A stretch of DNA of 32,292 nt from Spirogloea muscicola (taxonomy: Eukaryota; Streptophyta; Zygnematophyceae; Spirogloeales; Spirogloeaceae). Shown one piece after another: positions 77 through 31,242 of the stretch. Location: assembly GCA_009602725.1 (NCBI GenBank), contig WELB01000390.1:27980-60271 (forward strand), in the 5' to 3' direction. A program made the position numbers and the translations under genes. The notes beneath the pieces were generated by a model. The model searched no databases. It saw only the letters and a program-made list of their open reading frames with translations, and was not told the origin of the DNA. The number at the start of each line of letters is the position of its first letter. Position 1 is the first letter of the stretch.

Positions 77-1826
<1,750 letters not shown>

Positions 1827-2555: not shown

Positions 2556-5500
2556 TTATCCAACACTGACCCACCGACCATTGGATGGCACAGTTGGCCT
2601 GTTTGATGCACTGTGCACCACCACAAAGAGCAGGTAATAGCCCGGGGGGCAAATGGAGGCCGTTGGTGGGCTGGTAAAAGACGCCGAGTACCTCCCTGCT
2701 GATCTAAGTGCAAGGCTGCTAGAGGCGAGCACTAGCATCCGCTGTCCCATGTTCCGGCCGTGCGTTGCCACGCCGGGGTCAACGAGCACAACGTCTACCG
2801 AGCTGACTGGGCCCGCTGAAAAGGAGAGTGAATACGAGCTGTTGTATAAGAGGTGTTTGGGTGACAAGGTGGAATTTATGCTCGGCCGCGGTGCAAGCTG
2901 CGCCGACAAGTAGCGCGGTGAGAAGGCCTCCACTGAGAGCGGGACGCTTGACGGGTATTGCAATGGGGGCTTCTTCGTGATGGTGCTGCCCCCTGCAACT
3001 ATGACCTTCCCATCAAAGTTGAGGGTTGCGGACGCTTGATCTGGCCTGGCGATGGTGGATGGTGGCAGGACTTGGAATCTCAAAGGGCTGCCTCGCGCCT
3101 GGCTAGAGTCCAAGAGGAACGTGGTCAACAAAGGCTTATCCGTGTCATTTTGTGCTGCCAAGATACAGGAGAAGTGTCGAAGTCAGTGCTGGACAAGGCA
3201 AGCTAAAGGCTAGTGGCCAGAGCAGCTCGACTCGAGAAGGTTATCTGAAATCTTGCTGCTCTCTCGCACACAAATCGGTACTGTGATCCCAGATGGGCCT
3301 GTAGCTACTTCGCACGAGGGTGCAGTAGAGAAACCAAGTGCTCTCGTTCTCACTATGACCATTTCTGGAGAATCAAGAGTTCTCAGCTATACCTGCTGAA
3401 CCAGAGGAAGCGCCATTGATGAAGAGGACTGTGCCATCGGGCAAAAGGACGGTGCTGAACATGGTGCGTGGCCCGGGCATTTTCTCATATGTCCACGCTG
3501 GTGATGCGTCACTGAGCTGGAGAGTGCCGCATGAAGCTGTGGCTGGGAATCCGCCTCCGCAGACCATGATGACTGCAGCATAATCAGCTGCAGCATCCAG
3601 TGGGAGCATGAAGCTGCCAGAAGCATAGGGGCTGGTCCTTGACTGAGAAGTGAGGTTCCCGCCGATAGGAATATTGGGCAAGACACGGGTGCAGTTGCCG
3701 TTTCCAGCACCGATGTCTAGCTCACAAGCCTGGGGCGCAGGCGTTGCAAAGCGTCACTATTACAATTTCACTGTCATACACAGAGCAGACAGCGAGCTTC
3801 AAAGCAGACAGTGAGCTTCATATGGACACAGAAAGGCAGGATGGCTAGTGAAGACCGAATGCAGGGAGAACTGAACAATGATGCTGAATTGATACAAGCT
3901 TGTGAGCTTCTTAGCACCTTGGTATTGACCAGCAGAAAGATGTTGCCATTGGGAAGAAGGTGCACGATGGGATAGAGGTCGTAGAACCCGTCCATGAGGA
4001 GGAGTGGAATGGGGTGCGTGTTGGACCTCTCAAGAGGTCTCTGCTTCCAAAGCAGCTCATATGAGAAGCTTGTTGCAGTGAACGAGTCCGTGTCGCTGTT
4101 CATCCCCTCACCACCGACAAAAACCATGTTGCCATCCTGCAGCCTCTGTGCGGATGAAAATAGCCTGTTGACTAGCCCACAGGCAGCAAGTGAGCGACCA
4201 GCTTTTGACCTTGCAGTGGTTTTCACGGCTTTGGTGCCATTGACATGAATAAGCTTAACTTCAAGTGGTCTGAGCATCTGTCATGTATATATGAGCCCGA
4301 GTCAACAAGGGACACAGCATGGAAACTGACAATCTGCTTTGGCTGACCTTCTTGTCCTGAGGGCCTGCTCTGTGAGATTGAAGTCGGCGGAGCCATATGG
4401 CAGCGGTTCAAAGCTACGAAGCGCATACCAGCCCTTGGGATCAGAGCCGTTCCCAATGCCACCAGCAATGAGCACAACTCCATCGGATGTTGTGTGGCCG
4501 CAGGCTCCGTACGTGTTTGTCATGGGCCCATGGAGGCCGCGTGCCTGTATAGCAGTCATCCAGTCAATAATAGTTGCAAGGCTCACAAGACCGAACACTG
4601 TCATTCAGTATATGCAAGTTGCAGACAGGCTTAGGAATTTCAGATTTAACATTAAAAAAGCCCACGAACCTGGAAAGTGGTGGTGCTGAACTCCACCGCA
4701 TGAGCAAAGCGGGAGTCGTCACCACTAGTCATGATGCCTGATTCGACGATGTCGGTGCGATCAACAAAGACGATGGTGTTGAACCGTGTCAGCACAGCCA
4801 GGGTGCCGGAGATGCCAATGTTGTCGTTGAGCACTGTGAAGCTGGTGGTGAGTGGAGGAGGAGGAGGAGGGCTGTTGGGGGGCGGGGAAGGTGGAGGAGG
4901 GTGGGGCCTGGGAGGTGGCGGCGGAGGAGGAGAACTGGGAGGGGGCCTAGGAGGCTGCGGCGGAGGAGGGGACCTGGGAGGGGGCCTCGGGGGGTGCAGC
5001 AGCGGAGGGGGGGAGCTTGGAGGCACACTGTTGGGCGGCATGCCCGCAGGAGACCTCGCTGGCGGCGGGGGCTGCCCAGCGCAGCTGGGGATGCCACAGC
5101 GGTCGTGGACAACGATCTTGTACACGCCGCTAGGCATTAGTATGTAAGGGTCGCCCAGGTAGTCTTCCCCCCAGCTGTGAAGCTCTGGCACCGAGAGCGG
5201 CGTGTTGAGCGTGTGGACGAACGGGATGCTGAGTGTGATCTCCTGAGCAGCGTAGAATCTGACAGACTGCGTCGCCATGGTTGTCCACCGCCGTTGTCCG
5301 GGTCCGCTCGTGTCGGTCGCAATCCACAACGCTCCGTATTGGTCGGCATAGAAGTACTTGCCAACGTAGCAGGGGATTCGTGGCGAGCGGTAGACAGGCC
5401 CGCCGATGATCGCAGCTTCTGTGATTGTGACGTGTGGGTCCGAGTGGGTGTACGTTGCCTTCGGCCACTGCCGACAGACAAACCGAACAGGTGAGCTCAC

Positions 5501-8175
5501 TTTGCAGAGTCATAATTTTCTGGACATGCTCGACTGCTTGACTGAAGCACGAGCAAAGTAATAAAGACTGCTTTCACTGAGGAGCTCCCACCTTGAGTGT
5601 CCCAAAGATGCGGCGGGGATCAGTCAAGCCGCCAGGTGGGGCGTGCTTATCATAAGCGGCAATCTTTGTGAAGTTCTGCGTGCCTGTGCCCCCGCCATAG
5701 AAGCTGTCCTAGTTAGGTCCACACCCTGCCTGATAGTCTGATCTACTTGCTTGCTGATTGCAGGTGGGGTGCCTAGCAGAAGGCAGCGCCGTGGCATTGC
5801 AAGTCCTTGCCAGCAAAGCCCCTGCCAGGATGGGCTTCGTATGCACCTTCAAACATGCGCCACCCGTAATTGCCTCCTGCCTCGATGACGTCAACCTCCT
5901 CAACGGTGTCCTGGTTTGCATTTGACGTCATGGTGGCAGCGTGAGCGATGTGTGAGGGACCAATTGAGGCAGTAATTGCACCAGCGACATTGTTATATTG
6001 TCAAGTTGGAGCGAGCAGATATTTGTTTAACAAGTCGAAGCAGTCCACTGTTTGGGAAGCATGTGGCGGACGTGACTAGCCATCAGACCTGCCCAACATC
6101 AGCACAGAGGAAGTCGTCGTTGTCGCGGTCGAAGACGCAGCCCCAGGGGTTGCGAAGGCCGAGCGCGTATATTTCTGGGCGGATGCCTGGGACACCCACA
6201 AACGGGTTGTCTGGCGGTATACTGTACGGCTTCGAATTGGTGTACCCGTCCACATCCAGCCGCAATATCTTGCCAAGAAAGGTCGTCCCCCGCTGAGCAA
6301 AGTTGAAAAGGTCGCCAGTTCCACCTCCATCGCCAGACATGTAGTACATGTACGGCTCCCGCACAGTGCGGCGAAATAGTATGTGGCCGCCGTTGTGATT
6401 CAGGTACGGCCTAAGCAAAGGCCAAGCCACCAGGCTCAGGATGCAGATTAGCGCGGCCGCAGTCTGCATGCGATGTTTGGCAATTGCGCTCGCCTCACCT
6501 CGCGAATGTGAGGAGTCGCCGGACCTCCACTTTGATAGCCACTGTTGCAGTCTCCGGGTTGGGGCCTGCATTGTACTCGGCGACAATGGTGTTTGCCTCA
6601 CACTTTGGCTGCAGCAAGATTCCAAGTCCAGGATATGGCATGTGGCACTCATTGACCTCATTGCACTCGCACGGCCCTTGGCAGTCGGGGTGCTTGGTGC
6701 CGTTGCAGATGTATGAGACAAAGAAGCTGCCATTGACGAGGTAGTCTGGATGCAGCGCAAAGCCCAAGAGACCCCGCTCGCCATTGAAGGTGACCCGATT
6801 CCTGAGGTCTAGAAACTGCGCCAGGAAGCGAGAGAGTGGTCAAGCGGACGTATCGATGAGACGGCAGTCGTGGGGTGGTTATCGTGGCCTTGCCGAAGGG
6901 CCAGAAGTGCTTGCTCGCTGTCGAGCAGCGGTGTCAGATGCAGAATCTGGGCTTTGCTTTATCGGTCATGGCTTACTTACAAGGGACATGTTGCCAAACT
7001 TCTGCCCGCTGCCCTCCGGCGGAATCTGCGCAAGGTACACAGCACCCTTTCGCGTGTGCAGGAAGACACGGTTTGTGCCGTCGGGATGTGGTAGCATGCC
7101 CAGGTAGTATCCATCATCAACGCGGTCGATGCAGACGTTCGGCAGTGCCGGGGCTGAGTTGCTTGGTGGCGGCGGCACATATGGAGGAGGCGGTGGCGCA
7201 GGGGGCAGGGGCCCGTTGGGATCATATGGTACGCCGCTGAAGCAGCGCGCCTCGTACGGTGATGCGCAAAAGTCAAGCCGGAACGCTTCCAGTGTTGGGT
7301 ACGCATCGCTCAAGCGGAATGGCACCGCGCTCGGCGGCGCATCGGGCTGGTCCTGTTGCGCCTGCAGGTATTGGACGTGGAAGGGCGAGAAGGAGATGAC
7401 GAGGCCCGCGCACGCCGTGTAGGCGGCATCGCAGTAGCTCCCCAAGCACAGCAGCGGCAAAGCGCGAGTAGCCCCAACTTCTGAGTCAAACAGGTGCGCG
7501 GCCCACGGGTCACATTGCTGCAGAGACAGTGCGCCGACTAGAGTCATTCAGCGCGGGGTTCGGACGTGCAAGCCAGAGGTCCACTGGCCGCCAGAATCAG
7601 GTGTTGGCTTGGGAGGGCGGCAACTAGCAGAGCTTACAGCGCAAGTGGCGCGCTGCAGGAAGGCCTGGCAAGCATGGACATCGCCAGCGCCGCCCAGAAA
7701 GTGCATAATGTTGAGCTGCTGCTGCAGGGCCACATCCGCGGCGTAGTTGCAGCAGCCGAGGTCGGCGTACGCGCCGCCGTAGAGCTGCATGCAGAAGGGC
7801 CCCGCAGGAGACTGCGGCACCGGCCCCGCTGCCGGCGTAGCCAGAGCCGCAAGCGGGTGAGGACGGTGTTAGTGGAGGTGCAGGCATTGCAAGTGGCTCC
7901 CTGCGAGATCAACTGGCTGGCTTTTACAGCCGCTCTTACTGTATTAGCAGCAGCATTCTTTTTCTGAAATCCATTCTCTCACGCTCCCAGCTAAAGCCCA
8001 GACGGTCGTGATATCTTTGTTTGAGAGCTGCGGCAGCGGCTCGCTCACAGAAGTCCTCGCAGATGGGGTGCGCCAGGACGCCGACGAGCAGCAGCGCTGC
8101 GGCCAGCGCGCAGGCAGGCCAGCTCCAGCCTGCGGGTGCTACGCGGCTACTGCCGCTCCGCTGCTGAGGCGCCAT
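2556..8175 (-). CDS. HIPL-type glucose/sorbosone dehydrogenase fused to a glyoxal-oxidase-like domain (1,275 aa)
   Basis: Predicted secreted wall or surface protein. Exons, in minus order: 8175-8049, 7828-7638, 7517-6981, 6815-6499, 6410-6089, 5910-5847, 5683-5592, 5467-4670, 4544-4348, 4164-3918, 3729-3393, 3154-2556; total 3,828 nt. Start MAPQQRSG matches MAPRRRGG of the paralogue at 24789. Order: signal peptide (about 1-37, hydrophobic ALAAALLLVGVLA); HHIP/folate-receptor-like Cys-rich domain (about 40-200); PPPPP hinge; GSDH (about 285-680) with the conserved NHNGG His, GDGGGTGD, GLRNPWGCVFD and CADVGQ; Ser/Pro linker (about 683-755); oxidase-like beta-propeller and DUF1929 (about 757-1275) ending RWVSVG. 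GSDH proteins are PQQ-dependent sugar oxidoreductases; the alga's substrate is unknown. Linker and oxidase N-terminus share one exon, which argues for a real fusion. Radical-copper ligands look lost. Exons 6-7 are the least certain. Confidence 0.85.
4850..5070 (-). other. Ser/Pro-rich (extensin-like) linker between the two enzyme-like halves
   Basis: Within exon 8 of the fusion gene, about 70 residues of SPPPP, PRPPP and PPPSPPP blocks separate the last GSDH strand (VYKIVVHDRCGIPSC) from the oxidase N-terminus (TTSFTVLNDNIGISGTLAVL). Such stretches are typically hydroxylated and glycosylated in green algal extracellular matrix proteins. The opposite strand has an open glycine-rich frame that is only a shadow. 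The homologous tract in the paralogue (about 27840-28150) is longer and ends in a stop. Confidence 0.8.
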
Positions 8176-8556: not shown

Positions 8557-9300
8557 ACATCTCNCCCACCCCGCGCCGACACGAGCAACACCATCCCCCG
8601 AGGGTGGCGCCGGCGCCTTTCGCCAGCGCGCATCCCAGCAAGGCGCCGCCAAGATCCCCGTTCCCACTGAGAACCCTCCACTCGACATTGCTGGCGTGGA
8701 GACCAAGTTGCCTCTCACCAGCCAGGAGAGTCGAGATGCTCTGCCTACGTGTTCACCATCTGGCAATCTCATCATGCAGTGGAAACGAGTGTTGGGGACG
8801 GCGGCATAATGCGCCCTGGCCCCAGGACCTGCGGCGCGGATTGGGGGCCGCAAATCTGCCACGGTTGCAGGATCGCAGCTCATGACAAGGAAAGGACGGG
8901 CCGCGTGTGCACGTGGACCAGCACGGGCCTGTCGCGACGCGCCGGCCCCCTCCCTCCGTCAGGGTCGAGAGGCATCTTCGACGCGGCGCGGGGCTGGGCG
9001 GACGGCCAAAACGATGCCGTTCGCATCTGCCACACCGCCGCCGCCGCAAGGGCGAGTCTCCCCGGCCCGGGGTATGGGGTTTAGCAGTCTGTCCCAGGCT
9101 GCCCTGAGCTCAGTCGGGCACTGCAGCTGTAACAACCCCACGCTCCTACACACACAATTGAAGGTGAGTTGTCCTCAAATTCGGCTGCATGGGCTTCAGG
9201 AGCCAACCCCCGACACGGCGAAGCACTCGCGCATCGGCGCAGCGGAAGCCTAAGCCCTGTGGCGCCGCCGTCAGGCAGCGTCTCCATCTCCTGGGCACCA
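8557..9300. other. GC-rich region with no recognised gene
   Basis: Open frames occur on both strands but are Arg/Pro/Gly-rich, as expected of GC-rich non-coding DNA. No domain, start context or splice pattern was recognised. It separates the fusion gene from the repeat graveyard that begins near 9300. Confidence 0.5.
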
Positions 9301-17995: not shown

Positions 17996-18998
17996 GAAGC
18001 CCAGTCAGCAGTCCTAGTCAAATCGACACAAATAGGCAGTCGACAGGACACGGCACGACATGGTGCTGGCCAGGTATACGATCCAAACGGACAAGGTTCA
18101 AACGACTGAAGCCCACAAGAGGCAGCAACAATCGCACGATGCAGTGCTTGCAATTTCACAATGCAGCAGATGCGACCACACGACAGGAGGTGCATATACA
18201 CACACCGCACGTTTTTTTAAACATCATCAGGATTGGCTTCAGGGTCGCTGTCACAACATATCACGATGTTTGCCGCTTGATAAGAGTGATCGACCTTTCG
18301 CGACCGGCTGCCAAAACCCTCAGGTTTTGGCTCTCCAGCTGCGCTGCTGCCCTTCCTTCACGCTCACGCCCTTTTGGCATAGCACAGAAAAAGCAAATGA
18401 CGCCCGACGGCAATGCAGCGGCGGCAGCGGCGCGGGGCAGCTTGTGCAACAGATTCTCGTATCTATTATCTGATCTATTTCGTGTACCACTCATCACCTA
18501 GTAAATGCTTCTAGTTCTCCCTTTTACTTCTACCAGAAGTAAAAATAGTTCTGAGTCCGTTTTGCCGGCCACGTGGTTCTGTGATGTCACCTGCTTCTGA
18601 ATGAATATGACTCATCCACGTCATGTGGCAGGCAACACCACTTGGCAAACAAGGTTGACGCTTCGCTGCCCTCTAAAAAATTCGCTTTGTAGAGCATTCG
18701 CAGAAGTCACACACAGTGTCATTTTTGGCGCCTTCCGGCGTTTGTGGGCTGGCTTACCCATTTGTACTTGCTGACTAGAAGACCTTTGTGTATACAACAA
18801 CTTTGAAACAAACAGAGGCCCAATGGCCAAGTACAAAGGCAATCATCTAGAGACGTCATCACCTACAGCAAATTGACCCGCTCAGTAACCACGGGTCAAT
18901 GCATAAAGGTCGCTGATCGATGTCTGAATACTAGATGGCAGATACGAAGCCCTTCTACCACCAACTAGAGCTCGCCCAGCTTTCTGGTGCAAAAAGCA
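17996..18998. other. Spacer before the reverse-transcriptase element
   Basis: No gene recognised. Contains the hairpin at 18522-18544 and the shared 20-mer at 18823-18842. A GGGCTGGCTTACCCATTTG repeat remnant is at about 18748. Confidence 0.5.
18522..18544. repeat. Perfect 10-bp hairpin
   Basis: TTTTACTTCT, loop ACC, AGAAGTAAAA: a perfect 10-bp inverted repeat with a 3-nt loop. No adjacent gene is recognised, so it could be the tip of a foldback element or a chance palindrome. Confidence 0.8.
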
Positions 18999-21655
18999 TT
19001 AGCTTGAGCACGCTGCAAACTGGCCGAAATGCGTCGTCGCAAGAACGACAGATATGCAAGCTGGCAGGCCCATCTCAGCCGGAAACACATCTGCCTGTCG
19101 TGCATAGCCTAGATTGGCAATATTCTGAAGGAGAATGTGGAAACGAGGACCTAAACAGCCAAAGATGTCAGCTGCAGCTGGCAGGAGCTGATCGCATTTG
19201 GGGTTATCGGAGGAGTGCCGCAGCTTTCTTTGTTCTGCACTGCCCACTGCGTGGCCGGCGATGTGCGTCGATGCTGGACCTTGATACGCCTCCGTAACAA
19301 CAACATCGACCAAGGCCCGTGGTCCTCCACCAGGTTGCACGCCCACAATGTCAAGTGTGCGGCGATGATGACGTTCCTGGGCATCCGTGGTGATAGGCAT
19401 AATGTTGTTCACTTCCACGACCGCACGGAACGTGGCGCCGCGCATCAAACCCGCCAGGGCATCGCGGAGGAGGTTGTGGATGCCCACCACGTCTGGTCTA
19501 GTGGGGCAACGCAGCATGTGAGTGGCGAGCTCAGCACCCTCTGCACGGAAGCTACACTCACACTGGCGCACCCCAATCAGGCAGTTAGGTGGGAGGCCGA
19601 GGAAGAGTTGAAGCGACGTCCGAAAGGCCTCGGAGCTGAAGCTGAAGGCGTTAGCGACGGCGCGTGAGGTGAACCAGTGGGTGGCACCAGGTGTGGCGAG
19701 AGAAGTAGGTCATGCCAGGCTCCTTGGATTGTTCTGAATCTCTGGCAGCCTCCTCAAGCTTCTGCGGCGCTCATCTTTCACTGCCGTAACCAATCTGAAT
19801 CGTGCCCCTCTATCAGAAGCTTGGGCGATGTCTGAGAATGGCGTGAGTAGGGGTTGTAGAGAGGGATGAGAGCCGATTGCTGAGTCGCGGATGCTCCTCA
19901 GATCCGCTTGGAAGGGGACGGAGCCTTCCTCCACATTGCGTACAGGATCGTGGAGGCAAGGGAAGCGCATGGGAAGCAGAGAGGCGGTCTGGTGCCAGCA
20001 GCCCAGGAAGGCAGCTTGCGCCGTCTGCGCCAATGACCGGCAGCCAAGGCCGCCCATGCGAGTGGGGAGGGAAGCATGGAGGGAAGATGAGGCTGAGGGG
20101 AAACATGAAGACTGAAGTAGGGATGCCAGGGACTGCAGAAGGGAAATTATCGTGTTCCTTGTAAAGCTCAATCACCATGCCCGTTGGGGCGACTGTCCGT
20201 TGCAGGTAGCATGCGCGTTGGCGCGATGCAGCGGGTGAGAATGGCTAACGCCAGCTGTGTGTCCCCAAGGAGGAGAAAGGACGGGAGGAGGGCGAGGTGT
20301 TTTTGTAGGCGTTCCCGCAAGTCCACCGCCACGTGAGGTGGTGTACCGAAGGGGACCTTGAGGATGGCCAGCACTGGCAGGGGCCTGACAACCGTGTGGG
20401 AGCTGAAGATTTGGGGGGAGACCGCGTGGGGACCATGCCACGCTCTTGGACGGGCAAAACCGCAGGCCCATCAGGTCCACTTCGCGAAACGAGCAGTGGT
20501 ACGCCGCCATGACTTGGCTGGAGATCCAATGTTGTGTGTATCATCCGCGTAAGAGGGGAAGAGGAGGTCTGCGTGTTGGCTCTGGGTGCGCCGAACAGCC
20601 CGGGAATGTGCCAAGGCAACAAGGATTGGGCTGAGGAGATACCCCTGGCGTGTGCCAAAGATGACCACAGCATCTTCCACGACTCTCCGGCTTGCCACAG
20701 CAGCCGCCCTGGGCGGCCATAGGCCATGAGGATCAAGGTTCTAAGGGAAGGGAAGTGGTCGCGCAGCTCCTCCATGATGACGCTGCGCTCGACTGCGTTA
20801 GAAGCTAAACTGATATCCAGCCCAAGGACCATCTTTGAAGGATTTACATCGAGAGCAGCGCGGATGCCGTGGACAAGGGCCTCCGCCCCGCAGGACATGC
20901 CAGCACCAAATTGGTGGGGTGATAGGTGGCTGGTCAGCTGGGGTTTCAGCTCGCTGCACACGGCCTATGATATCAGCCGCATGAAAACCTCAGTCATCGC
21001 AATGGGTTCTCACACGGCCTGTCGGCTTTGCACGGGCCAGCAGGTGGCTGGAATTTTAAGGCGTCGGCAATGCGTGGTAGAATGGCAGCCCTGGCGATGT
21101 GCCGGCAGGTGGACAGGGTCCCATCCCCATCAAAATAAAGGTCCTGCAGGTGCTCAAAGAGCCATCCAGAAGGGCTTCCAGACACCATCCGGGGGGCTTT
21201 GGTCAGGGGCCATACGGAACGCCTCTGCGCCTCTCAAGGGGACTGGGGAGCTCGCCAGCCCAGGGCTCAAGGGGGTTGTTGTGGAGGGGGTTGGAGCTGT
21301 CGCAAGATAGCCTCCGTGGCGTTGGTAGTAGCCAGGGGGGCCTGAGCTGCCCGGGAAAGTTCTCCTGCCCTGCCAAAGCGTCTTGCGCGCGCTCTATTGC
21401 CAGCTGTGAAGTGTTGAGAGGGCAGATTTGACTGATCCATTGCGCGCCCGCCGCTGTGAGAGCGCGACCCGAGCAGCCGCTGCACGCTGCTGAGCCAACT
21501 CCTCCCATTTTCCGCTTGGTAAAGTTAGCCAGTCTGTCCTGGAAAGTCTTGCGGCCACCGACGCCGAAAGAGGGAAGATGGCCAAGAACAAGCTTGGGAA
21601 AAAGCATGTACTGACTAGAGATTATTGAGCGTCCATTTGCGGAACTTTTGAGCAA
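18999..21655 (-). pseudogene. Degenerate non-LTR retrotransposon (reverse transcriptase, Cys-His motif, endonuclease-like C-terminus)
   Basis: On the minus strand, in several frames: an N-terminal region with LFPKLVLGHLPSF (about 21615); RT start PHQFGAGMSCGAEALVHGIR and VLGLDIS (about 20920-20800); GTRQGYLLSPILVALA (about 20655); the active-site box SYADDTH (about 20550); GLRFCPSKSVAWSP (about 20450); LPTRMGGLG (about 20070). The last segment (19571-18999) has CECSFRAEGAELATHMLRC, a CxC-x12-HxxxC motif, then RRTLDIVGV and ALVDVVVTEAY, resembling the restriction-like endonuclease of R2-type elements. This order is typical of such elements. Frameshifts and stops between blocks make it non-functional, though its last 190 codons are open. 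Confidence 0.8.
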
Positions 21656-21767
21656 TTTCTTTGTTGCATTTTCCGGCCACTTCAGACTTTTTGAGAGAGA
21701 TATTTGTCTTTTTCATCCCTTCGCACTGGCCTCTCACTGCCAGTGCCTTGCGTTGGAAGAGCTTCTA

Positions 21768-24788: not shown

Positions 24789-27700
24789 ATGGCGCCTCGG
24801 CGGCGCGGCGGCAGCTGCGCCCCGGCGGCCGCTCGCCGCAGCAGATGGCTGGCGCGCACCGTAGCCGCCGCGCTGCTGCTCGTCGGGAACGTGCTGGCGC
24901 ACCCCATCTGCGAGGACTTCTGTGAGCACCACCGCTGGTCTTGCGGCCGTAGCCAACTCCCTCCGTGTGGTCAGCTCTCGTGGGTAGCGCCTCGATCTCG
25001 GATGTAAATCATGTCTCCGTCACGGCGACAGCTGTGCCGCAGGCGGTTGTGCCTGGCATGGCCGCCCTGATGGGAGCTCTGGTGGTGGGCGCTCGCAGCT
25101 GGGCCTGTGCCGCAGTCCCCAGTGGGCCCCTTCTGCATGCAGCTCTACGGCGGCGCGTACGCCAACCTGGGGTGCTGCGACTACCACACCGACGTCCAAC
25201 TGCAGCAGCAGGTTGCTGAGATAGCCTTCTCGGGTGGCTCCGACGACGAGATTGCGGCCTGCCAGTCTTTCCTGCAGCTCGCCACCTGCGCAGTGAGCTC
25301 CCTCACATACCCAGTTTCCGATTTGTCGATCAGCGGCCACCCTGATCGCTGATTGATTGGCAGTATGCTCTGTTGCGACGCTCGCTGACGGGCTGGACGA
25401 CCTGCCATGCGTCCATGCAGCAATGCGACCCGTGGGCGTCGCATCTGTTCGACTCGGAAGTCGCCGCGGCGCGCGCTCTGCCGCTGCTCTGCCTGGGAAG
25501 CTACTGCGACGGCGCGTACGCAGCTTGTGCCGGCCTCAACATCACGTACTCGCCATTCTACCTCCAGTACCTGCAGGCGCAGCAGGACGAGCTCAACGTG
25601 CCGCCGAGCCCGACAGCATTCCGCCTGCTCGACCAATACCCGACAGTGGATGCATTCCGGCTGGACTTCTGTGCGTCGCCATACCAGGCCCGCTGCTTCT
25701 CCGGCTCGCCTTTCGATCCCAACGGCCCGCTGCCCCCGGCACCGCCACCGCCACCGTACGTGCCGCCTCCGCCGACCAGCTCGGCGCCGCCTCTGCCCGA
25801 CATCTGTCTCGACCGTGTCGATGACCAGGACTACCTGGGCATGCTACCGCACCCCGACGGCTCCAACCGCGTCTTCCTGCACTCGCGCAGTGGATATGTT
25901 TACCTTGCGCAGGTCCCGCCAGAAGGCAGCGGCAAGAAATTTGCCAACAGGACCACTGTAAGCCAAACTCCTATGCCAAGCGTGCTGCTAGTTGATGCTG
26001 CTCGAGCACCAGCGCGTGCCGCCTCCAGTGACGAGGCCGCCACGCCTTGGCGAAGGTCCGACCTGTTCACGCTGTTCACATGTGCAGTTTCTTGATCTTC
26101 ACTTGAGGACTATAGTCAACGGCGAGCGTGGCCTGCTGGGATTTGCGCTGCACCCGAACTACCTTGTCAATGGCCGCTTCTTTGTGTCGTACATCTGCAA
26201 TGGCACCCAGTACCCGGACTGCCAGGGGCCGTGCGAGTGCAATGCGGTCAATCAGTGTTCTATCCCGCAGCCCAACGTCAGTGCCTTGCTGCAGCCCTTG
26301 TGTGAGGCCAACACGGTTGTTGCTGAGTACAGTGCCGGCCCCAGCCCACGTACAGCGACAGTCGCCATCAATGCTGAGGTCCGGAGGCTCCTCACATTTG
26401 CGAGGTATGGCATGCCATGGGAGCTCCTTGGCAAAGTGAGGCATCATGTTTGCAGCAGCTGCCCGCCCATTGGATATTGACTTTGGCTGGCGAGTTGCAC
26501 GGCCTTTGTGTTCAGGCCATACGCCAACCACAATGGCGGCCACCTGCTCTTTCGGCGCACTGTGCTGCAGCCTTACATGTACTACATGTCCGGTGACGGA
26601 GGTGGAGCTGGCGACATTTTCAACTTCGCCCAGCGTGGCACGACCTTCCTTGGGAAAATCCTGCGGCTTGACGTGGATAACTACACAGCAAGCAGTCCAT
26701 ACGGCATACCGTCAGATAACCCGTTCGTTGGCGTCCCAGGGATTCGCCCCGAAATCTATGCGCTTGGCTTGCGCAACCCCTGGAGCTGCACTTTTGACCG
26801 CGACAATGATGACTTCATCTGTGCTGATGTTGGCCAGGTCTGGCGGCCAGCCACGGGCTGACTGTATAGCTGCACTGGCCAGATGCCGCTTCTCGTTGCT
26901 GTCGTCATTGTAGCTGCTTGCTTTCCTCTCATATGGATCGTTGCCTCTACTGCAAGCATTGGGAGCCTTCACCAGCTTAGACATCCTGCGCTGCAGGACA
27001 ATGTGGAGGAGGTTGATCTCATTGAGGCTGGAGGAAACTACGGTTGGCGTATGTTTGAAGGTGCGTGCGAAGTTTCGCCCCTGGCAGGAACTCCACCAAG
27101 GCATCACCAGCACTTGCTGCTGTGCATTGATGGCCTATTTGCTGGTGCCAGCTCTTATGGACCGGATGTATGGCAAGGTGCCCATCTGATTATGCAGCTG
27201 CCACTTTGATTGCACAGGAGAGTTGAATTTCACAATAGTCGCAAAATATGACATGCATGCCCCACCAGGCGGCTTCACGGACCCCTCCAACATCTTTGGG
27301 ACGCTAAAGGTAGGAGCCCTTGAGGCCCAGCCAATTATGCAGTTGTCTTGCCAAAGCTGGAGGGACCTGAAGCGCTTTCATGAGTTCTGCAGAAAGAGTG
27401 ACCGCTGACACAAGCCTTCTCATTCCTTTTTGGCCGCAGGGGCCGAAGTCCTATTACACGCACCAGGACCCGCATATCACAGTGACCTACGTTGCAATCA
27501 TCGGTGGCCCCATATACCGCTCGCCGCGGATCCCTTGCTACAGTGGCAAGTACTTCTTCAACGACCAGCTTGGCGCGTCATGGATTGCGACCGACACGAG
27601 CGCGCCTGGGCAGCCGCGGTGGACCACCATGGCCAAGCAGTTTGTCAACTGCTACGCTGCTCTTAACACCACGCTTGCTATCCCGTTCAACCATACGCCT

Positions 27701-28153
27701 GGCGGCCCGCTGGTTGTCCCAAGTATTCACACCTGGGGTGAGGACTACAATGGTGATCCATACGTGCTGACCCCAGTTGGCGTGTACAAGGTCGTCGGCC
27801 ACGACCGCTGTGCCATCCCTGGCTGCCCTGCGCAGCCAGCACCGCCTCCCACAAGCCCTCCGCCGCCACGGCCGCCGCCACCTCCACGTCCACCTGCACC
27901 TCCACGTCCACCTCCACCTCCACATCCACCTCCACCACCAGCACGTCCACCTCCACCTCCACGGCCGCCGCCACCTCCACGTCCACCTGCACCTCCACGT
28001 CCACCTCCACCTCCGCGTCCACCTCCACATCCACCACGTCCACCTCCGCCACCACGTCCACCTCCACCACCACGTCCACCACGTCCCCCTCCACGTCCAT
28101 CTTCACCTCCACCCACACCTCCACCTCCACCTCCACCTCCACCTCCACCTTAA
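24789..28153 (+). CDS. HIPL-type glucose/sorbosone dehydrogenase with Pro-rich C-terminal tract (790 aa)
   Basis: Paralogue of the dehydrogenase half of the fusion gene at 2556-8175. Exons: 24789-24921, 25099-25292, 25421-25957, 26088-26404, 26516-26837, 26997-27060, 27218-27309, 27440-28153; total 2,373 nt. Exons 3-7 (537, 317, 322, 64, 92 nt) have the same lengths as in the other copy. Order: signal peptide (TVAAALLLVGNVLA); HHIP/folate-receptor-like Cys-rich domain with FCMQLYGGAYANLGCC and CDPWASHLFDSEV; PPPPP hinge; GSDH with FNGERGLLGF-like VNGERGLLGFALHP, NHNGG, GDGGGAGD, GLRNPWSCTFD, CADVGQ and WGEDYNGDPYVL; Pro-rich tract from about residue 686 to the stop. Predicted extracellular PQQ-dependent-type dehydrogenase, substrate unknown. 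Unlike the first copy it ends in PPPP and a stop with no oxidase domain. Exon 6 could extend to 27177. Confidence 0.85.
27840..28150 (+). repeat. CCA/CCT/CCN trinucleotide-rich Pro tract
   Basis: Imperfect array of CCACCTCCACGTCCACCTCC-type units encoding PPRPPPP blocks, ending (CCACCT)n and TAA. Strong strand asymmetry (C-rich on +). It corresponds in position to the linker at about 4850-5070 but is more homogeneous and longer, which suggests slippage expansion. The open frames on the opposite strand are shadows. Confidence 0.9.
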
Positions 28154-29011: not shown

Positions 29012-29413
29012 GATCCCACCAAGCTGCACCCACCTACATATAGATGGCACAATGGCTGCGCCAACAAGGCCAGGTGTGACAGTACAAAGAGCAAGTAGTA
29101 TCCTGGGGCGGCGATGTTGCCGTTGGGCGGGACGGTGACTGTTGTGGTGAATGTGCTATTGCCGTTAGCAACGAACTTGGTGGATTGCAGCTTGACCATG
29201 CCCTGGCCCATTTTGAGGCCATGCGTGCTCACGCCAGGGTCGATCAGCACAACAGAGACGGCCTTCGCAGCCGCCGCCGAGAACGTGACCGGGACGGCCT
29301 GGGAGTAGAGGAGGGAGGTAGGCAAGGACGGCGAGATGATGGGCGGTGCAATCATCTACTAGTCGAGGTTACTGTGGCGAGAGGCTTCCACAGACAGTTG
29401 CACGGCCCGAGTA

Positions 29414-29756
29414 CAGTAAAACCTCTCTAAGCTTATCCTCCATCAGCTTATATCCTATATAACGTTATCAATTTTGGCAAACCGAGTCGGTTTAGTGACG
29501 TAAGCTTATAATCCTCTATACTGCCATACTTTACATATTTTTTCTCAAAACATAAGTTTACACCTATGAACGGACCGTGCGGACGGACCGTGCGGCGGAC
29601 CGTGCGACGGCGTGCGACGGACGGACCGTGCGACGGACCGTGCGACGGCCGTGCGATGGCCGTGCGACGGACCGTGCGACCTGTGTACCGTTATAACCTG
29701 TTTAACGTTACACAAACCTCCCCAACCGACCGTATAACCTTAGACAGGTTTTACTG
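29414..29756. mobile_element. 343-bp MITE-like TIR element with TA target duplication
   Basis: Ends are inverted copies of CAGTAAAACCTSTCTAAGST; the match runs 23 nt with two mismatches. TA flanks both sides (29412-29413 and 29757-29758), as expected for Tc1/mariner/pogo-type insertion. Subterminal AACGTTA words are also inverted. No transposase frame fits, so it would be non-autonomous. It interrupts the last exon of the oxidase pseudogene. Confidence 0.85.
29571..29686. repeat. Minisatellite of GGACCGTGCGAC-type units inside the TIR element
   Basis: About nine imperfect copies of a 9-13-bp unit built on GGACCGTGCGACGGACCGTG, with shortened CGTGCGATGGC variants. It fills the centre of the TIR element and is far more GC-rich than the arms. 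Confidence 0.9.
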
Positions 29757-31242
29757 TACTTACTTGGGGCAGGCAACGTGTAGGGGCTTCCTCCCGCCAG
29801 GATGTTCCTGCTGTCATGGGCGAGCGTGGCAGACGCCTGAAAAGGCCTGGCGATGGTGGACGGTGACAAGACGTTGAACCTCGCTGCCGAACTGGGCGAC
29901 ACGGCTGGATTGTGAAGGTATGGGTCTGATGCTGGCATGCCAGCGGCACTATTACCTGCGGCAGGCATCCATGTGCACAAGCGGAGCTTATACAGCGGCA
30001 CATGTGAGCTTGACTGCCAATGACGAATTTCACTAGCTTACCAGCACGCAAGTTGCATCAGATGACTTATCAAGTATGCGGTACAGATCTCAACAGAGCC
30101 AATGCTGATCCCTCTTCACACCTGCATAGCCCGAGCTGGCACCGTTGATGAAGAGCACCTTCCCGATGGGCAGCAGGATCGTGTTGAACATGGTGCGAGG
30201 CCCAGGCATGAATTCGTACACCCACACAGGGCTGCCAGACGGGTCGTCGACCCTGAGGGAGCTGCAGCTCGCTGTGGCAGGGTAGCCGCCACCACTGACC
30301 ATGATGGTGGTGGAGTAGTTCGTGGCGGCATCCAGTGGCAGCATGAAGCTCGACGCACTGTGTGGACCGCTCCGCAACGCCGAAGTATTGCTCCCAGCTG
30401 CTGCAATGTCCGGGTATGTCTTGACGCAGGCGCCACTACCAGCTGTGATATTCATCTCGCACGCCTGCAGAGCTTACATTGGGGTGAGCCGAGCCCAAAC
30501 ACTAGGGCTAGATCGGGTGAATAGCAGGGAGAGTGTGGCCATCTGGACTTGCTTAACAAGAAAGACAGCAGGACGCACGACGCTGCCTCTGGCATTGGGA
30601 GGCCCGCCTTACCTTGGTGTTGGCGAATATGAAGATATTGCTGTTCTTGAGAAGGTGGAGGATGAATGACAAGTCGTACCCGCCAGTACTTTGCAGGAGA
30701 GCAATGTGGTGAATGTTGGATGCCTCCAGTTGTTGGTCTTGACCAGCAGCTCGTATGACCAGCTGCAGGAACTGTACGGATTGGCATCAAGGACCTGCCC
30801 TTGGCCGCCAACAAACAGCACGTTGCCATTCGGCAATCTCTGGGCAGAAGACAAGAGCCTGCATCACAGGAAGCAGCAGCAGTGCGATGAGCACCCCTAC
30901 AGAGATAAATGTGGCCATGTTTGAGCTTTTATCACAATGTTGACGTGCAGTCAGTTTGTGGGCAAGCAGGTTGGGTTGACCAGCCTGCGCTGAGCTCTGG
31001 CATGCACTGGCGTGCTCTTGTAGACGTTGTCGTGCAAGTGGCGCCTCACCTCCTGCTCCTGAGTGCTTTCTCTGGGTAGTCAAATTCGGCGGTGCCATCG
31101 CCGGTGGAGTAGAAGCTCCGCATGGCATACCAGCCAGTGGTGCTTGAACCGGTGTTTATGCCACCAGCAAGGAGGATGTGGCCATCAGGAGTGGTGTGCC
31201 CGCATGCGCCGTACGAGTTTGTCACGTGGCACCGGATGCTGT

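Follow-up and report, generated by a model that had tools for sequence, protein, structure and literature searches.

A 32,292-nt stretch of the Spirogloea muscicola genome (contig WELB01000390.1, positions 27,980-60,271; the whole of this stretch is called the window here) raises the question of whether a single gene joins a HIPL-type sugar dehydrogenase (GSDH) to a glyoxal-oxidase-like (GLOX) module, as an earlier note on the same DNA had suggested, and of what such a protein might do. The window was compared with its own genome, a 153-Mb assembly of 471 contigs, from which loci with GSDH and galactose-oxidase-type matches were fetched. Its proline-rich linkers and numerous introns are in keeping with a green alga. 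The fusion was confirmed at the level of sequence: one gene, called the fused gene below, joins the two modules, the join is kept in paralogues, and both halves are alike in divergence and under purifying selection.

The gene was rebuilt with 12 exons, which total 3,828 nt or 1,276 codons with one stop at the end, the same count that the earlier note had reached (Table 1). All 11 introns are GT-AG. The exon 6 donor (5847) and the exon 7 acceptor (5683) were set by DNA alignment of 12 loci, the fused gene among them, and the donor GAAG/GTG and the acceptor CACAG/G are common to all 12. The exon 10 acceptor (4164), with the exon starting at CAACAG/GCTATTTTC, was set by a nine-locus alignment that included the exon start of C185. 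Aligning the DNA of related loci ruled out a 1,300-residue gene model without a normal exon 6 donor, and early models with another exon 2 boundary were dropped on the same grounds, as were GC-AG introns at exon 6.

At least 16 GSDH hits were found in the genome, and 16 were sorted by their neighbours. Five are fused loci, in which the two halves share a frame through the linker (the fused gene, C95, C12, C123, and C289). One is a more distant same-strand pair that is not in frame (C118), seven face an oxidase-type hit on the other strand, and the remaining three have no E-set hit nearby (C28:42539, C42, and C39). C95 and C12 share the exon-intron structure of the fused gene, with exons 3-7 and 9-11 equal in length, and are open throughout.

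The join itself lies in exon 8, which is shared by the two halves. This 798-nt exon runs without a stop from the GSDH module through a 75-residue linker into the N terminus of the oxidase half, as had been read before, and only 3 of 2000 mononucleotide shuffles of it stayed open. It is also open in C95 (765 nt), C12 (762 nt), and C123 (918 nt), thus in four of the five fused loci, all lengths being multiples of three; C289 has two stops in it. Nonsynonymous (dN) and synonymous (dS) divergence between the fused gene and C95 was estimated to be 0.156 and 0.877 in the GSDH half (dN/dS 0.18) and 0.152 and 0.814 in the GLOX half (dN/dS 0.19). Equal divergence alone could also arise in neighbouring genes; together with the open shared exon, it is the pattern expected of one gene.

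Two adjacent genes, one HIPL and one GLOX, might still be only seemingly joined by a splice model that runs through the linker. HIPL-only genes with a proline-rich tail and a stop do occur in the genome and in the window, in-frame Met are found in the shared exon at 614, 661, 693, and 796, and C118 has stops between its halves, where an intron would be needed. Such an arrangement is hard to reconcile with a junction inside one stop-free exon at four of five loci, where length varies by multiples of three, and with the same divergence in both halves. Moreover, no second signal-like stretch was seen at the oxidase half, and TGTAA, a green-algal poly(A) signal, is absent from the shared exon. We consider two separate genes improbable. 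Besides the stops in C118, some points do weigh against a single working gene: C123 keeps the open junction and has two frame breaks in its GSDH half, C289 is a degraded pseudogene, so that three of the five fused loci are intact, the fused gene itself included, and no TGTAA was found from the stop codon to position 1800, so this signal gives the 3′ end no support. C123 was rejected as an intact copy, its exon 3 spanning 1 nt and its exon 4 spanning 4 nt less than in the fused gene, with introns forced by the aligner; C289, with its stops, was rejected as a working copy.

The domain content of the 1,275-residue product was then read with Pfam, a check that the earlier note had suggested. Four domains were returned: Folate_rec (PF03024, 3.7e-07, 30.6 bits, barely above the cut-off of 29.8), GSDH (PF07995, 9.8e-26, 91.3 bits against a cut-off of 25, residues 247-543), Glyoxal_oxid_N (PF07250, 6.1e-26, 91.6 bits), and GO-like_E_set (PF09118, 1.4e-21, 77.1 bits). 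These domains were also found in C95, where Folate_rec scored 24.2 bits, under its cut-off. No pherophorin domain was listed for the product at E ≤ 0.001. Hydrophobicity over 15 residues peaks in the stretch that starts at residue 21 (score 2.69), the best 15-mer beyond residue 100 scoring 1.65, and a comparable exon 1 is present in H390 (the HIPL-only gene inside the window), C95, and C12. Eleven N-glycosylation sequons were counted, four on the GSDH side and seven on the GLOX side. Together with the one hydrophobic N terminus and the proline-rich rod, these sequons suggest a secreted wall or matrix protein.

Because both halves carry oxidoreductase folds, an active bifunctional enzyme has to be weighed, in which the GSDH half would oxidize a sugar and the oxidase half an aldehyde or alcohol with production of hydrogen peroxide. 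For the oxidase half, the sole solved sequence at E ≤ 0.001 was FgrAldOx (PDB 9n3u; a provisional model served as query). Its copper ligands are given as Y738, H739, H826, and Tyr510, the last cross-linked to Cys450 (PMC13094651). Two of the corresponding residues are kept, namely Cys831 of the Cys-Tyr pair and the ligand-like His1208 of the E-set. The Tyr-His pair is replaced by Asp-Gln in all five fused modules, and none of 18 related modules aligned has Tyr-His. The cross-link Tyr is Leu883 in the fused gene according to the family alignment (the 9n3u alignment begins further on), Phe in C95, C12, and C123, and Ser in C289, where it was read through a forced splice. The predicted oxidase half is thus without three of the five copper-site residues, Leu883, Asp1115, and Gln1116 standing in place of Tyr, Tyr, and His.

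Other GLOX loci of the genome served as a control. R-x-Y-H is kept at six distinct loci (L026, L028, L029, L032, L037, and L038; L041 and L043 overlap two of them) and also at L035 and L036, and six of these eight (L026, L028, L029, L032, L035, and L036) also have the Trp-Tyr motif. The pattern for the third His gave no match in the 11 stretches scanned and Cys matches could not be placed, so the control is limited to Tyr-His and Trp-Tyr. It shows that the loss is not genome-wide, which says nothing on the activity of those genes. The oxidase head of the fused protein is probably non-catalytic.

For the GSDH half, the nearest solved structures are chains of human HHIP, a Hedgehog-binding protein (7.5e-20 to 9.2e-20), compared with 5.7e-14 at best for pyrroloquinoline quinone (PQQ) glucose dehydrogenase, again with a provisional model as query. 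On the other hand, His396 (NHxGG) and Arg477-Asn478 (RNP) align in local hhalign with the His and Arg-Asn of E. coli YliI, which we take to be catalytic residues, and this counts against a purely structural head. The C-terminal stretch of YliI with Lys and Arg-x-Arg, presumably the PQQ-binding residues of its C-terminal blades, had no counterpart in global hhalign, where alignment confidence was 0-1. The GSDH half may be catalytic; its status is uncertain, and by sequence it is HIPL-like more than enzyme-like. Taken together, the kept Cys831 and His1208 and the residues shared with YliI are outweighed by the replaced copper-site residues at the fused loci, by HHIP as the best solved relative and, at very low alignment confidence, by the YliI stretch that found no counterpart, and we give the bifunctional enzyme little credence. 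The earlier view of an extracellular matrix protein built from two oxidoreductase families thus holds in part: a secreted two-propeller protein is a fair reading of the single signal-like N terminus and the proline-rich rod, and a working pair of oxidoreductases is not supported.

Still a shade less probable is that this fused copy is decaying or without function, for although its closest relative C289 is degraded, with stops and a dN/dS against the fused gene of 0.71 (GSDH) and 0.54 (GLOX), and C123 has its two frame breaks, the low dN/dS of both halves against C95 was obtained at dS > 0.8 and the fused gene is open with regular introns throughout.

We therefore return to the structural reading of the fused protein, for which we hold good though not full confidence: it would be a secreted, dumbbell-shaped wall or matrix glycoprotein with two propeller heads on a proline-rich rod, encoded by a gene that is most likely older than the HIPL-only form. 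One end would consist of the signal peptide, the small Cys-rich domain, and the HIPL-type propeller of GSDH fold; the middle would be a rod of variable length and of the hydroxyproline-rich type; and the other end would be the glyoxal-oxidase-fold propeller with its E-set domain. The loss of three of the five copper-site residues makes a wall building block likelier than a working oxidase, and the heads would serve as binding or assembly modules, for example for wall glycans. That the protein is secreted, that its rod is hydroxylated and glycosylated, and that it belongs to the wall or matrix are points that we infer, and so is binding by the heads, which weighs against this reading.

The relative age of the two forms was approached from the HIPL-only genes. 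In the window, a second HIPL-type gene faces a degraded GLOX copy of the GLOX2 type, for which the aligner forced many odd introns. The same convergent layout of hits was seen at six other genome sites, the hits lying within about 2.5 kb in 7/7. The HIPL genes are clean at three of the seven (H390, H105, and H28), and in the other four, introns had to be forced or a stop is present. In the GSDH tree, the seven HIPL-only modules are united in a single clade (98/98) next to the C95 group, the fused gene and C289 falling outside. In the GLOX tree, the five fused modules form one clade (100/100) and the three convergent modules that were read form another (100/100). Convergent and fused GLOX modules differ by dS of at least 1.6, up to saturation (3/7 loci read), whereas the HIPL partners H390, H105, and H28 differ from the C95 group by dS of 0.23-0.33. 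Downstream of C95, C12, and C123, all fused, there are degraded GLOX2 copies as well; at the fused gene's own locus, no GLOX2-type right-hand match was found down to window position 1021. An origin of the convergent pairs by simple inversion of the oxidase half was rejected, because the convergent GLOX is a separate old clade, its HIPL partners are young, and GLOX2 copies are also found behind fused loci.

At the DNA level, the match between convergent and fused loci extends as far as the linker and resumes about 220 nt past the oxidase stop of the latter (3/3 tested, seven known). The three HIPL-only loci tested look like fused genes minus the oxidase half, and the fused state is most likely the older one, the HIPL-only form having arisen later by loss of that half. 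In the simplest history, the fused gene would have faced a second GLOX gene, and the oxidase half of the fused gene would then have dropped out in one clade, the breakpoints lying within the repeat-rich linker or next to it. Three features of the trees weigh against this order. The fork that places the seven HIPL-only modules with the C95 group has a support of 87/89; the GSDH tree is rooted on two long-branched rows, C118 and H28b, for which the program warned of false joining; and the trees on which the order relies include degraded copies that could be read by forcing introns.

The genome has further cases of rod-joined propellers, in which GLOX modules are linked to one another in one frame. 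At C20:605618-614400, C118, C152, and C2 (L007, L025, L027, L031, and L033), the frame is open from the E-set via a proline-rich stretch into the next module, and none of the aligned tandem modules has the Tyr-His copper pair. C341 (L005, L008, and L034), where the spacing is similar, is perhaps of the same kind. At C118:66632-75346 (L009, L049, and L027), a HIPL module and then two GLOX modules lie on the same strand, with stops between the HIPL module and the first GLOX; a longer true fusion would require an intron there.

On a more tentative footing, at slightly below even chances, the fused gene may stand for an algal wall-protein family whose pherophorin-like dumbbells have taken on, as non-catalytic heads, two propellers that differ in origin and were once oxidoreductases, and whose modules are gained and lost on proline-rich rods, loss of the oxidase half being visible in the HIPL-only clade with breakpoints in or beside the linker exon. 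If so, green-algal matrix proteins would be built from unrelated globular heads on proline-rich rods beyond the pherophorin domain, and enzyme folds would have found a second use as non-catalytic heads. An annotation that goes by domain names would label the product either sugar dehydrogenase or glyoxal oxidase, and for the oxidase half the label is probably wrong. Since fused and HIPL-only versions coexist in one genome, the effect of losing one head is testable.

Table 1. Positions of the fused gene, its parts, and the second HIPL-GLOX pair in the window
Feature	Position	Strand	Basis or match
Complete fused gene, 12 exons, 1,275 residues	2556..8175	(-)	spliced model
Exons 1-6	8175-8049, 7828-7638, 7517-6981, 6815-6499, 6410-6089, 5910-5847	(-)	
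Exons 7-12	5683-5592, 5467-4670, 4544-4348, 4164-3918, 3729-3393, 3154-2556	(-)	
Exon 1, residues 1-42, with start codon and a signal-like hydrophobic peptide	8049..8175	(-)	
Folate_rec-like Cys-rich N-terminal domain, residues 62-161, exons 2-3	7353..7772	(-)	PF03024
GSDH / HIPL-type propeller module, residues ~231-680, exons 3-8	5078..7145	(-)	PF07995
His396 of the GSDH half	6395-6397	(-)	
Arg477-Asn478 of the GSDH half	6149-6154	(-)	
Exon 8, shared: GSDH end, Pro-rich linker, and GLOX start, residues 551-816	4670..5467	(-)	open frame
Pro-rich linker, residues 681-755, 63% Pro, 12% Ser	4853..5077	(-)	composition
Glyoxal_oxid_N match, residues 775-1023, exons 8-11	3553..4795	(-)	PF07250
Asp1115-Gln1116, in place of the copper-ligand Tyr-His pair	3036..3041	(-)	aligned to Tyr-His of PDB 9n3u
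Galactose-oxidase-like E-set (GO-like_E_set), residues 1166-1274	2562..2888	(-)	PF09118
Second HIPL-type gene, same GSDH exon structure, own Pro-rich tail, stop 28151-28153	24789..28153	(+)	
Degraded GLOX copy (GLOX2 type), convergent to second HIPL gene	29066..31238	(-)	groups with G105 and G285

Other features of the window were also recorded. A 4Fe-4S exon at 1356-1700 (+), convergent to the fused gene, gave the only match (Fer4, 8.6e-09) among ten open frames of the window scanned with Pfam; we take it to resemble NDUFS8 of complex I. Several long frames at 18900-21700 (-) look retroelement-like by eye, and four of them that were scanned gave no Pfam match. Shortly upstream of the fused gene, a GA-rich simple repeat includes a single N at position 8564, single Ns being present in 9 of 28 fetched stretches, the window counted, and a long A run occupies the very start of the window, from 1 to about 76.

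Relatives of the fused protein were also sought outside this genome. Peptide-pattern scans with four GLOX modules in prokaryote and viral collections returned 39 and 41 pattern matches, of which none was confirmed as a relative at E ≤ 1e-3, though distant relatives can escape such scans. In literature that joins GLOX, galactose oxidase, HIPL, or GSDH with algae, no description of the fusion was found by title or start of abstract among the papers listed; subscription journals were mostly outside this scope, so an unpublished status is not implied.

Among known systems, the first half of the protein resembles the HIPL and HHIP proteins, with a Folate_rec-like N-terminal domain followed by GSDH and human HHIP as its best solved relative. 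Plant HIPL proteins have the same order of Folate_rec and GSDH. Unlike these, the fused protein adds a proline-rich rod and a whole glyoxal-oxidase-like module. The open frame through a proline-rich stretch is shared with the GLOX tandems of the same genome, but there both partners are GLOX, and a GSDH hit adjoins in C118 alone. The second half has the Glyoxal_oxid_N and GO-like_E_set order of the AA5_1 glyoxal/aldehyde oxidases such as FgrAldOx (PDB 9N3U), but differs from it at Tyr-His (Asp-Gln) and at the cross-link Tyr (Leu). FgrAldOx bears WSC domains instead of GSDH (PMC13094651).

A parallel in overall plan is offered by the pherophorins of Volvox and Chlamydomonas. These are described as dumbbells whose two globular domains sit on a proline-rich rod that varies strongly in length (PMC9818292), with heads postulated to bind carbohydrate (PMC9200674). 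The fused protein likewise has a rod, here with 63% Pro and 12% Ser, whose length differs between paralogues. Its heads, in contrast, are a GSDH/HIPL and a glyoxal-oxidase propeller in place of pherophorin domains. The predicted protein is thus pherophorin-like in plan, but it is not a pherophorin.
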